From contig CAIQVS010000079.1 in NCBI GenBank assembly GCA_903875345.1, positions 1 through 35,445 on the forward strand: a stretch of 35,445 bases of DNA, given 5' to 3'. Position 1 is the stretch's first letter, and each line of letters starts with the position of its first letter. The position numbers were made by a program, and so were the translations under genes. Of this stretch, positions 1,905-23,189 are shown one piece after another. This DNA is from an uncultured Pseudomonadota bacterium. GTDB taxonomy: Bacteria > Pseudomonadota > Alphaproteobacteria > UBA9219. The notes beneath the pieces are model-generated. The model made no database searches. It saw nothing but the letters and a program-made list of their open reading frames with translations, and was not told where the DNA came from.

Positions 1905-4568
1905 CTAGGCTACCGGCAACCACAACACATCATCGATATGCTCGGCGCCTGTCGCCAGCATGACAAGCCGATCAAAGCCGAGCGCGATTCCGGCGCATTC
2001 CGGCAAGCCGTGGCGCAAGGCGGCGATGAAATCCTGATCGATCGGCGTGCGTTCGCCGTATAGTTTTTGCTTCAAATTCATATCGGCCTGAAAACGGCGT
2101 AGCTGTTCTTCGGCATCGGTTAATTCGCCGAAGGCGTTGGCGAGTTCAATTCCGCAAACATAAAGCTCGAACCTTTCCGCCAGACGCGGGTTGTCATTCT
2201 TGGGGCGCGCGAGCGCAGCTTGACGGATGGGGTAATCGCAGAGAAAGGTCGGTCGATCCTTGCCGAGGAATGGCTCGATGCGTTCGCCGAGGATGCGGAA
2301 AAACAGGTCGTCCCAGCCATCCCCCTCGGCAACCCGTACGCCAATGCGGGAAGCTTCGGAGATCAGGTGTGTGGCGGAGGGATTCCAATCGTCGTCGATG
2401 GTCGCCAGAATATCGATATCCGTATACCGGCGGAAGGCTTCCGGCACGCCGAGATTTTCCCACGTGTCGAATGGATCGCACGTCAGGCCTTGCGCGGCGA
2501 AACCTTTGCGTCCGGCGACCGTTGCCGCGCTGCGCAAGAGGTGAACGCAGTCTTGCTTAATGGCTTTAAGATCGGCGTTTCCGCGATACCATTCCAGCAT
2601 GACAAATTCAGGATGATGACGAGACGACCGCTCACCGTTGCGGAAAACATGCGCCATCTGGTAGAGGCGCGGCACACCGGCGGCGAGCAATTTTTTCATC
2701 GCGAATTCGGGGCTTGTTTGCAGATAAAGCGTGCGCTTCGGCTCGTCGCTATGGGGGCTTTTGATTTCAGTCGCGAACGTTTGCAGATGGACTTCGTTGC
2801 CGGGGGACGTTTGCAGGATGGGCGTATCGACTTCGACAAAACTTTCCATGACGAAATAATCGCGGACGGCGTGGGTGATCTTCTGTCGGATTTCCAGATT
2901 GGTTTTGCGCCGCGCGAAGGTTTTAGGATGCCATGGCGGAGAAGGCGTGGGTGCCGGTGCGGTCGTATCTTCCGGTAACTCGATAGCATGAGGGTTCGTT
3001 TGCAACGGGGGGCCATTCCAGCGTTTGGGGATCAGCGTACTATGATCGCCAGAAATGAAGCCGCGCAATTCCTCGATGACATGGGCGATAACGGGTGCCC
3101 AGTTGCCGGGTTCGGTTTGCCGGAATAAACGCAAGGTTGGATACCAAGGACTGTCTTCACGCCCCAAAAGCCAGACCCAGTAGGGATCGAAACACAGCAT
3201 CAGCCATGTCGGGCGTCCCATGGCGCCTGCAAGGTGGGCCGTTGATGTGCATGTGGTTATGACAAGGTCGAGTTCCGCCATAAGAGCGGCGGTGCTGCTG
3301 AAATCCTCAAGCATGAAATCGGCATCGAATATTCCAAGACCATCAAGATTGACGCCTTTCTTGTGGGGACCCTTCTGCAGGGACACAAGATGAGGTCGGC
3401 CTTCTTTCAGCAAAGGTTCAACCATCGCTGGCGGTAAGGAACGCAAAGGATCGTTCGCGTTGGTGGGATTGCCGCCCCATACGATGCCAATGCGTGGACG
3501 CGGAACCGACGCAAGCCGTTCACGCCAGATCAAGCGTTGGCGTTCTTCAGCCCAAATATAAGGAATGGGAGTGGGAATTGAGTCAATGCATGTCTCGAAC
3601 CAAAAGGGCAGGCTCATCAAACGCGCGCGCGCATCAGCCTTGGGAACGGGATCATCGAGCGTGATCACGTCGATCATGGGGAAATTTTCGGCAAACAATT
3701 TTTGCAAAGGAGCTGCGACCTGCAGGGTTATTTGCTTCACATGATCGGCGAGCATCAGAAGATAGCGCGCTCCTTGCAAGGCATCGCCGAAACCTTGATC
3801 CTCATACAACAGAAGGTGATTGATGCGCGCGCCTTGCCAGAAGGGCAAATGGTGGAAGCGTGCGTCAAAATCTTGCCGCATTTCCCAAAGTTTCCATCCT
3901 TCATGGTAATCGCCGATCTGTAACCAAGCCATCGCCTCGTTGATCAGGCTCGGCGCGTGATTTGATAGCTGTGCGTTCGCGGCGCGGAAGAAAGACAGCG
4001 CGCGTCCGGGATATCCGGCGCTTTTAAGGACGTTTGCCAACGTCATGGGAATGGTTTTGTTGTCGAGCTTTAGGGCGCGCCGCATCAGGACATAAGCTCC
4101 GCGCAAATCGTGCGAGGCATAGAGCGTTAAGGCATAATCGCTGGCGTATCGGGCTTCGTCCGGTTGCAATTTGAGCGCTTTCTCATGGCAATCACGCGCG
4201 TGTTCCGGTTGTCCCATCCGGTTGAAAACGATGCCCATGAAATTCCAAACGTCGGCTGAGTTCGGATCGAGACGCGCGGCTTCCATTGCGGATTTTAGGG
4301 CGTCATCAAAACGCCCCAGCGTATGTAAAATTAGGGCCCGATTGTACCACGCGGTGGCCATATCTATTTTTTTGGCCAGCGCCGCTTCGATAAGCTTGAG
4401 CGCCAGCTCAGGGTTTTTCCTTTGGTTTGCGATGAGGCCAAGAACATGCAGCGTCTCCGGATTTTGAGGATCCTCGGCAAGAATGGCTTGGCATAACGCA
4501 ACAGCTCCAGCCAAGTCTCCGGCTGAACATCTGTCTAGGGCTTCAAGGAGTTTATGCTGGTTTGTCAT
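1905..4568 (-). CDS. Fusion protein: TPR repeats + GT9/FlbA-like glycosyltransferase region (about 2950-4568) + EF-P lysine--tRNA ligase-like domain EpmA/GenX (about 1905-2950)
   Basis: Single 887-aa ORF. N-terminal TPRs (NPETLHVLGLIANQRKNPELALKLIEAAL...), then LLLYEDQGFGDALQGARYL...PRIGIVWGGNPTNANDPLRSLPP...ITTCTSTAHLAGAMGRPTWLML; C-terminal class II aaRS motifs VEVDTPILQTSPGNEVHLQTF, RLYQMAHVFRNGERSSRHHPEFVMLEWYRG, GIALGFDRLVMLATG. Confidence 0.85.
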   Translation of the reverse strand: MTNQHKLLEALDRCSAGDLAGAVALCQAILAEDPQNPETLHVLGLIANQRKNPELALKLIEAALAKKIDMATAWYNRALILHTLGRFDDALKSAMEAARLDPNSADVWNFMGIVFNRMGQPEHARDCHEKALKLQPDEARYASDYALTLYASHDLRGAYVLMRRALKLDNKTIPMTLANVLKSAGYPGRALSFFRAANAQLSNHAPSLINEAMAWLQIGDYHEGWKLWEMRQDFDARFHHLPFWQGARINHLLLYEDQGFGDALQGARYLLMLADHVKQITLQVAAPLQKLFAENFPMIDVITLDDPVPKADARARLMSLPFWFETCIDSIPTPIPYIWAEERQRLIWRERLASVPRPRIGIVWGGNPTNANDPLRSLPPAMVEPLLKEGRPHLVSLQKGPHKKGVNLDGLGIFDADFMLEDFSSTAALMAELDLVITTCTSTAHLAGAMGRPTWLMLCFDPYWVWLLGREDSPWYPTLRLFRQTEPGNWAPVIAHVIEELRGFISGDHSTLIPKRWNGPPLQTNPHAIELPEDTTAPAPTPSPPWHPKTFARRKTNLEIRQKITHAVRDYFVMESFVEVDTPILQTSPGNEVHLQTFATEIKSPHSDEPKRTLYLQTSPEFAMKKLLAAGVPRLYQMAHVFRNGERSSRHHPEFVMLEWYRGNADLKAIKQDCVHLLRSAATVAGRKGFAAQGLTCDPFDTWENLGVPEAFRRYTDIDILATIDDDWNPSATHLISEASRIGVRVAEGDGWDDLFFRILGERIEPFLGKDRPTFLCDYPIRQAALARPKNDNPRLAERFELYVCGIELANAFGELTDAEEQLRRFQADMNLKQKLYGERTPIDQDFIAALRHGLPECAGIALGFDRLVMLATGAEHIDDVLWLPVA

Positions 4569-20779: not shown

Positions 20780-21655
20780 ATGCGCCGCGACCCGACAATT
20801 GAACAGATTTCCGAACTGATGAATGAACTCGGCGCGTATCGCGGCCGCACGGTCGTGATAAAAATCGGCGGCAATTCCATCGCCGAGGACGAGCATTTTC
20901 TCGGCAAGATCGCTCAACAAATTCAATTCATGCACGACAATCATCTGCGTGTCGTGCTGGTGCATGGCGGCGGGCCGCAGATCGACAACGCGCTGCGCGA
21001 CGCCAAGATCGAAACGTCGAAGGGCGCGGATGGCCGCCGCATCACTTCGCCTAAAGCGATGCGCGTCGTGCATAAGGTCATGAACGAGATTAACCGTCAG
21101 GTCGCGGAGGCTCTGGTCGAGGCCGGTTGTCGCAAGGACAGCGTTGTTTTCGCCGCGCGTTATCCGCACTTTTTCGTCGAAGCCGAGCCTTTGGATACGG
21201 ACGATGGCGGCGTCAACAATCGCAGCGGGCGGGCGGCCAAAGTCGCGCATGCCGAGATCAACGGGTTGCTCGACAAGCGCAAGATCGTCGTTCTGCATTC
21301 GCTCGGCGTCGGTCCCGACGGCAAGAGCGCGTTCAACATCAACGGCGACGATTACGCTATGGCAATCGCGATTGAAATCAAGGCCAAGCGGCTCATTCTG
21401 GTGACCAATGTTTCCGGCGTGCTGGATAAAAAGCGTGAGCGCATTCCGGCCATCGATCAGGCTATGGCCGACCGGCTGATCGACGAAGGCGTGATTACGG
21501 GCGGCATGGTACCGAAGGTCGAAAGCGCGCTGTGGGTCGTAAAGAACGGCGTCGGCGGCGTCGCCATCATCGACGGATTCCAGCCGTGGGCGATCCTCGC
21601 CGAGCTTTTGACCCACGAAGGATTCGGCACGCTGGTGCAGGCCAAGCTGGGGTAA
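20780..21655 (+). CDS. argB: Acetylglutamate kinase
   Basis: TVVIKIGGNSIAEDEHFLGKIAQQIQFMHDNHLRVVLVHGGGPQIDNAL...NINGDDYAMAIAIEIKAKRLILVTNVSGVLDKKRERIPAI...GMVPKVESALWVVKNGVGGVAIIDG. Confidence 0.96.
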   Translation: MRRDPTIEQISELMNELGAYRGRTVVIKIGGNSIAEDEHFLGKIAQQIQFMHDNHLRVVLVHGGGPQIDNALRDAKIETSKGADGRRITSPKAMRVVHKVMNEINRQVAEALVEAGCRKDSVVFAARYPHFFVEAEPLDTDDGGVNNRSGRAAKVAHAEINGLLDKRKIVVLHSLGVGPDGKSAFNINGDDYAMAIAIEIKAKRLILVTNVSGVLDKKRERIPAIDQAMADRLIDEGVITGGMVPKVESALWVVKNGVGGVAIIDGFQPWAILAELLTHEGFGTLVQAKLG

Positions 21656-21658
21656 GCT

Positions 21659-22249
21659 TTACTGCGGCGTATCGTAAGTGGCAGCGGTAGCTGACGTGCC
21701 GATAGCGACAGTGCCTCCAGCTAGCCCGTTTTCTTGGTCAACGCCGTAGGCCCGTACTCTAACCAGTTGCCCCAGCACGTTGCTGGTGTTCGACGCGATT
21801 TGCGCAACGGGGTTTTTCGGGAAACAGCTGGCGGTGACGGAACTGGTGCCGGTGGTAACAGGGGGCGCAGGATTATAGGCCGTGTATTTCCACTGCACGG
21901 TCGCCGAACACAGCAGGCCGGGGACATCGGCAAAACCATCCATAGTGTGTCGCACAGGCGATCCATCGCCGCACGTGACAGGCAAAGTTTTAGTCGGGAG
22001 CGTATAAACATTGACACCGAGAGAAGCTGGGCAATAACCGACGGCTGTTGCTTGGTTCGACAGGCTCGTTATGCATCTGCCTTCTATAAAATGAATTCCG
22101 TAACCGCGCACGGTGTCAGATGTAGTTCCGGAATAGCTTTCAATTTCAATTTTTCCTATGCAACTTGTCTCCGATGCAGCTTGGGCAGAAACTGCGGCTG
22201 TCAGAACCATGGCCGATACGGCCAGACCGAGAAAATGAATTGAACGCAT
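21659..22249 (-). CDS. Hypothetical secreted Cys-containing protein
   Basis: Signal peptide MRSIHFLGLAVSAMVLTAAVSAQAASETSCIGKIEI...; GGGAGGG Shine-Dalgarno just upstream of ATG at 22249; no family recognised. Confidence 0.65.
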   Translation of the reverse strand: MRSIHFLGLAVSAMVLTAAVSAQAASETSCIGKIEIESYSGTTSDTVRGYGIHFIEGRCITSLSNQATAVGYCPASLGVNVYTLPTKTLPVTCGDGSPVRHTMDGFADVPGLLCSATVQWKYTAYNPAPPVTTGTSSVTASCFPKNPVAQIASNTSNVLGQLVRVRAYGVDQENGLAGGTVAIGTSATAATYDTPQ

Positions 22250-22404
22250 TAAACCCTCCCACTTAAAGAATGGCGATATCTCGCCTGTATTTCTATCGTT
22301 TTGGTCGGTTCTGATCAATGAAAATGTGATTGAGGGAGTGTGGCCGGATTAACCATATTTGTCCATTATTTGTCTATTGCAAGTGTCGCGGTGTTTTTGT
22401 CATT

Positions 22405-22664
22405 TTCTGGTGACCAATGTTTCCGGCGTGCTGGATAAAAAGCGTGAGCGCATTCCGGCCATCGATCAGGCTATGGCCGACCGGCTGATCGACGAAGGCG
22501 TGATCACGGGCGGCATGGTACCGAAGGTCGAAAGCGCGCTGTGGGTCGTAAAGAACGGCGTCGGCGGCGTTGCGATCATCGATGGATTCCAGCTTTGGGC
22601 GATCCTCGCCGAGCTTTTGACCCACGAAGGATTCGGCACGCTGGTGCAGGCCAAGCTGGGTTAG
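22405..22664 (+). pseudogene. Duplicate of the 3' end of argB (no 5' portion)
   Basis: Near-identical to 21396-21655 at constant offset 1009: LVTNVSGVLDKKRERIPAIDQAMADRLIDEGVITGGMVPKVESALWVVKNGVGGVAIIDGFQLWAILAELLTHEGFGTLVQAKLG. Confidence 0.95.
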
Positions 22665-22751
22665 TTGGTTGTTGAAGCTTGCCGGGTTAGCCCATAGAAT
22701 GGGGGCGCGGCGGGCATATGCGCCACCCTCAACTGTATCAGGAGTCTATCG

Positions 22752-23189
22752 ATGGGCGTCCTTAAAGAATTTCGAGATTTTGCCGCGCGCGGCAATGTGA
22801 TCGATCTGGCGGTCGGCGTCATCATTGGCGCGTCGTTCGGAAAGATTGTGACGTCGCTGGTTAACGATGTGCTGATGCCGCCCATCGGTTTGTTGCTTGG
22901 CAAAGTCGATTTCTCAAATTTGTTCATCAACTTGTCGGATAAACATTATGATAGCCTTGGGGCAGCCAAGGCCGCTGGCGCGCCCACAATCAATATCGGA
23001 TTGTTTATTAATGCGATGATCGATTTTCTGATTGTGGCTTTTGTGATTTTTCTGATTGTGAAACAAATAAACCGCTTTCTTAAAAAGCCCGATGAACCGG
23101 CCAAGAAAGATTGTCCGCGTTGCTGTTCATCCGTTGCGATTAAGGCGACCAAGTGCCCATGCTGTACCGCCGACATTTCGGATGTTTGA
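22752..23189 (+). CDS. mscL: Large-conductance mechanosensitive channel
   Basis: [50 protein letters not shown]-terminal Cys motif [22 protein letters not shown]. Confidence 0.95.

Follow-up and report, generated by a model that had tools for sequence, protein, structure and literature searches.

In Escherichia coli K-12, the layout icd–e14–icdC arises via an integrase (PMC6379469). A different route has been described in the same species, in which linear DNA that escapes degradation can be religated and then integrates by a single crossover. Duplications of 109–950 bp were present in 14 sequenced recombinants; by contrast, homology-facilitated illegitimate recombination is expected to cause loss of recipient DNA (PMC3240628). 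An insertion with a long target duplication was found in Helicobacter pylori (Nobusato et al. 2000, described in PMC1643837), and T6SS effector/immunity genes and Rhs C-terminal modules enter by homology at one end, displacing the old end downstream (PMC5361080).

Here we describe the argB locus of an uncultured alphaproteobacterium, in which the 3′ end of the gene is present twice around a small insert. The locus lies in contig CAIQVS010000079.1 of assembly GCA_903875345.1; the whole stretch analysed, 35,445 nucleotides, is referred to as the window. Like e14 at icd, the argB locus consists of an intact gene with a putatively incoming 3′ end, an insert directly behind it and a displaced, presumably native tail. 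The copies differ mainly by synonymous changes in e14 as at the three loci described below: by the same comparison, the icd/icdC repeat is a 165-bp tail reaching to the stop codon, with 9 of 11 changed codons synonymous. However, e14 is a prophage of 15 kb that has an integrase and a single target, whereas the inserts here are shorter than 1 kb, have no integrase and follow three different genes. The integration of religated DNA in E. coli resembles the present case in that part of the homologous locus is duplicated around the insert, but it involved plasmid DNA under laboratory selection (PMC3240628); here the events are natural, are repeated within one genome and, unlike in the laboratory case, have donor tails diverged by about 3–4% at the DNA level. 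The H. pylori case, as recounted in PMC1643837, likewise has a small gene insert between long direct repeats of the target; that account concerns restriction–modification genes in a two-strain comparison, whereas here other genes are involved and the repeat runs up to a core-gene stop codon, where it ends. Entry by one-end homology with downstream displacement of the old end is also shared with the T6SS and Rhs modules, but in those systems the gene end is the cargo (PMC5361080), whereas here it is the anchor and a separate gene is the cargo.

The end of argB is doubled around a 749-bp insert

The gene order at the locus is argB (20780–21655, plus strand), 749 bp of unrelated DNA (21656–22404), the last 260 bp of argB again, a spacer (22665–22751) and mscL (22752–23189, plus strand; Pfam MscL, E = 8e-43). 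The argB gene is of the acetylglutamate kinase family (Pfam AA_kinase, E = 3e-39; 150.0 bits against TIGR00761 argB, cut-off 151.3) and is intact, probably as a hybrid. Sequence comparison within the window bore out the direct repeat that the first-pass annotation had reported at an offset of 1009, with 97% identity between 21396–21655 and 22405–22664 (both plus strand) and similarity that ends at the stop codon and, in the 5′ direction, has an abrupt limit at 21396/22405. The first copy, the 3′ end of intact argB, is probably for the most part the incoming allele; the second is severed from its own gene start. Similarity to argB begins abruptly at the new junction between insert and displaced tail (22404–22405), which may mark where the ends of the incoming fragment were ligated. 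The spacer would then be the native flank of the original argB, and mscL its former neighbour before the insertion.

The codon differences listed in that annotation, said to be synonymous with one exception, were also confirmed. The copies differ at 8 bases across 7 codons (ATT/ATC, GTC/GTT, GCC/GCG, GAC/GAT, CCG/CTT, GGG/GGT and TAA/TAG), 7 of the 8 at third positions; their stop codons are therefore unequal, CCG/CTT gives the single replacement (P269L), and the opening 100 bp are without difference. Proline 269 is retained by most of the ArgB relatives compared and is leucine in the displaced copy. When the eight differences were polarised using relatives, third positions varied freely and P269 alone could be called ancestral; P269L in the displaced copy may be later drift. 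A second ArgB-like frame, 31% identical, lies at a contig end of the draft genome (G000 contig C186, bases 7–552; L161) and is either a paralogue or a contaminant.

Among the relatives compared, which belong to the same family but other genera, many genomes retain lpxB, glycosyltransferase(s) and argB in this order, and the DNA behind argB changes from genus to genus. None has mscL or the insert behind argB, and the argB tail has no further close copy in any of them; mscL and pheS, where located, sit away from argB.

The insert carries a single orphan gene

An insert of about 750 bp encoding a secreted protein on the minus strand, free of integrase and transposase, had been proposed, and each element of this description held. 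The GC content of the insert is 51.5%, compared with 59.5% for argB and 55.8% for the window. Its sole gene (21659–22249, minus strand) encodes a 196-aa product from a likely ATG at 22249 behind GGAGGG, or 219 aa from an alternative TTG start at 22318, and stops 3 bp past the argB stop codon. The predicted protein has a signal-peptide-like N terminus followed by six cysteines in the mature part. It had no match in Pfam, NCBIfam, PHROG, phages, plasmids or viral contigs, no significant match in the PDB and no significant relative in the family or in the 33 order-level genomes searched; a search of 387 genomes from the class gave a single weak alignment, interrupted by stops (E = 1e-3), which was not convincing. 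Structure prediction from the single sequence was uninformative (mean pLDDT 36). Neither the open reading frames nor a profile search revealed an integrase or transposase gene in the insert, and no inverted repeat was found framing it.

The arrangement recurs at dnaE and parB

To look for close direct repeats with a minimum length of 150 bp and a minimum identity of 95%, we compared every contig with itself across about 712 kb of the draft genome (23% of it, window included). Just three places reached these thresholds, all of them gene 3′ ends: argB, dnaE and parB. A chance origin of the argB repeat is excluded, and its recurrence within the genome is a new result beyond the first-pass annotation. 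At dnaE, the last 242 bp are doubled (contig C70, L131; 8839–9084 and 10034–10279, offset 1195), and the insert between the copies holds a single gene, of up to 281 aa, whose match to DUF7796 is below the cut-off. At parB, the doubled end is 157 bp long (contig C10, L070; 673–829 and 1341–1497, offset 668), and the 511-bp insert holds a 74-aa frame with no match. The architecture is common to all three loci: an intact gene ending at the stop codon of the repeat, then a small insert, then the displaced tail. Insert sizes range from 511 to 953 bp and gene content differs, and open reading frames and profile searches gave no integrase or transposase in the dnaE and parB inserts. With these few cases (n = 3), the probability that all fall at 3′ ends and none at a 5′ end by chance is one in four (two-sided).

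The remaining repeats within single contigs were tandem domains, paralogues, IS-like copies, inverted repeats and overlaps of contig ends. In a control of 250 kb of E. coli outside e14, repeats were intergenic, intragenic or paralogous, and no gene 3′ end was doubled around an insert. The dnaE tail is single in 13 of 13 family relatives, in which neither the gene of the dnaE insert nor the phosphoesterase gene behind the displaced dnaE tail was found. This phosphoesterase gene, too, adjoins the old dnaE stop codon to within a few bases and may be an older arrival of like kind. On contig C118 (L179), a 109-bp gene-end repeat with 84% identity (252–358 and 1215–1323), each copy with its terminal stop codon, surrounds a methyltransferase gene, and umuDC-like genes adjoin; it may be an older case, or the contig may be a contaminant.

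The copies diverged as alleles would

In the three pairs combined, 22 codons differ and 19 of these differences are synonymous, compared with 27% expected without selection (P = 1.3e-8), and the synonymous excess was present in the argB pair alone (P = 0.002). The pS values were 0.09, 0.14 and 0.14, and pooled pN/pS was 0.05. Because the changes are nearly all synonymous, the copies diverged as working gene ends, that is, as alleles in separate lineages, and were joined recently. The earlier proposal that incoming DNA had carried its own diverged argB 3′ end was therefore supported, by argB itself and more strongly by the two further loci of like signature (combined P about 1e-8). The comparable pS values suggest that the donors were about equally distant in all three cases.

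A single crossover is the probable route of entry

The best explanation for the three loci is probably that a circle (or linear equivalent) from a close relative integrated by a single crossover. A fragment comprising the last 260 bp of argB from a closely related lineage and the 749 bp behind it would have circularised to about 1009 bp, or acted as the linear equivalent of such a circle, and integrated through one RecA-type crossover within the shared argB tail. The product would be a hybrid argB with the donor tail, followed by the accessory gene of the donor and the old tail of the recipient, displaced downstream. The same steps would have taken place at dnaE and parB with circles of 1195 bp and 668 bp, such that the fragments, each a gene tail with the DNA behind it, would span 0.7–1.2 kb across loci. 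Because such a fragment brings its own gene end, it could insert downstream of an essential gene and leave that gene unbroken, and the process is probably reversible through recombination between the repeats. We infer the donor, the circle, the crossover and RecA from what is directly visible, namely the structure at the three loci, the stop-codon edges and the allele-like divergence.

Direct repeats flank the insert at all three loci, as a single crossover needs. A comEC gene is present in the draft genome, and uptake via competence is possible. The absence of a Ku match in the draft genome counts against the circle, although religation did occur in the experiments with E. coli, a species whose control genome likewise gave no Ku match. 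Against the circle also stands the position of the events, with three of three cases at 3′ ends, none at 5′ ends and homology that stops exactly at the stop codon. A model of random fragments must explain this bias by selection or by the insertion history of the donor itself. P269L in the displaced copy and the fragmented, metagenome-type draft count on the same side. That similarity breaks off exactly at the stop codons is best accounted for by a change from conserved coding sequence to flanks that are unrelated, and this feature alone does not separate a circle from an integrase.

Alternative explanations

A local duplication of the argB end, after which one copy decayed, would be a simple explanation, and the sole amino-acid change in argB does fall in the displaced copy, at a proline common to most relatives. 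However, decay does not predict 19 synonymous codons among 22 changed where 27% are expected, and unrelated DNA is not brought in by tandem duplication; with differences that are almost all synonymous, we rejected it as the main explanation and regard it as highly improbable. A chimera, in which coexisting strains with and without the insert were merged in one contig, would itself produce allele-level differences between copies, and the draft is of a fragmented metagenome type (454 contigs, 8% contamination). Yet no contig examined contains an N, and hence none has the sign of a scaffold gap, and contig ends overlap by exactly 141 bp, from which we infer an assembly graph with k = 141 and no scaffolding. 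The longest exact tracts between copies (100, 72 and 49 bp) are too short to confuse such a graph, and the distance from the junction to the first difference varies among loci. A strain-mixed assembly is unlikely on these grounds.

Two other explanations deserve somewhat more weight. Integrases typically restore their target genes at the 3′ end, and site-specific integration of small elements or remnants that carry the 3′ end of their target, with an integrase acting in trans or since lost, would fit this habit. Every repeat stops at a stop codon, and icd/icdC of E. coli K-12 gave the same signature by the same comparison. But none of the three inserts has an integrase, their contents (511–953 bp) are unlike one another, their three 5′ edges share no common motif by eye, and three unrelated target genes would require three specificities. 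Because the inserts lack an integrase and their edges show no visible common feature, we rate site-specific integration lower, as a possible rather than a probable explanation. Of the two mechanisms originally offered for argB, a Campbell-type circle of about 1 kb fits best, given that DNA was duplicated instead of deleted, that no integrase is present and that an experiment provides a direct precedent (PMC3240628). Homology-facilitated illegitimate recombination of a linear fragment, anchored in the gene tail and joined non-homologously inside the same gene, would yield the same parts; it has been proposed for displaced T6SS immunity genes (PMC5361080), and comEC is compatible with it. That process normally deletes recipient DNA, whereas the circle route is recognised by duplication (PMC3240628). 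The expected deletion was not seen and 157–260 bp were duplicated instead, which makes this mechanism doubtful here. Transposon insertion was rejected, as the inserts contain no transposase and the argB insert is not framed by an inverted repeat.

A piece of about 140 bp recurs at many contig ends (L107 13665–13805, L118 1–141, L110, L111, L061 and L072) and by eye looks like the beginning of an IS5-type transposase; the assembly is probably interrupted at IS copies.

Short fragments as a source of accessory genes

Three cases in one genome suggest that integration of short fragments by a single crossover is a natural and repeated route, which bears on how genomes acquire small accessory genes when no mobile-element machinery is involved. 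The signature can be counted in any genome, as a close direct repeat that ends at a stop codon and has synonymous differences. We also considered a dedicated, integrase-free gene-moving system, in which cassette-like circles of 0.7–1.2 kb dock behind core genes, and hold it to be improbable. If it did exist, each circle would carry one accessory gene and a core-gene tail serving as the homology key, the core gene would stay in working order, and three cases in 23% of the genome would scale to roughly a dozen per genome. Elsewhere in the window, an 887-aa frame on the minus strand (1905–4568) combines, by eye, TPR/glycosyltransferase-like and EpmA/lysyl-tRNA-synthetase-like parts, a possible gene fusion.
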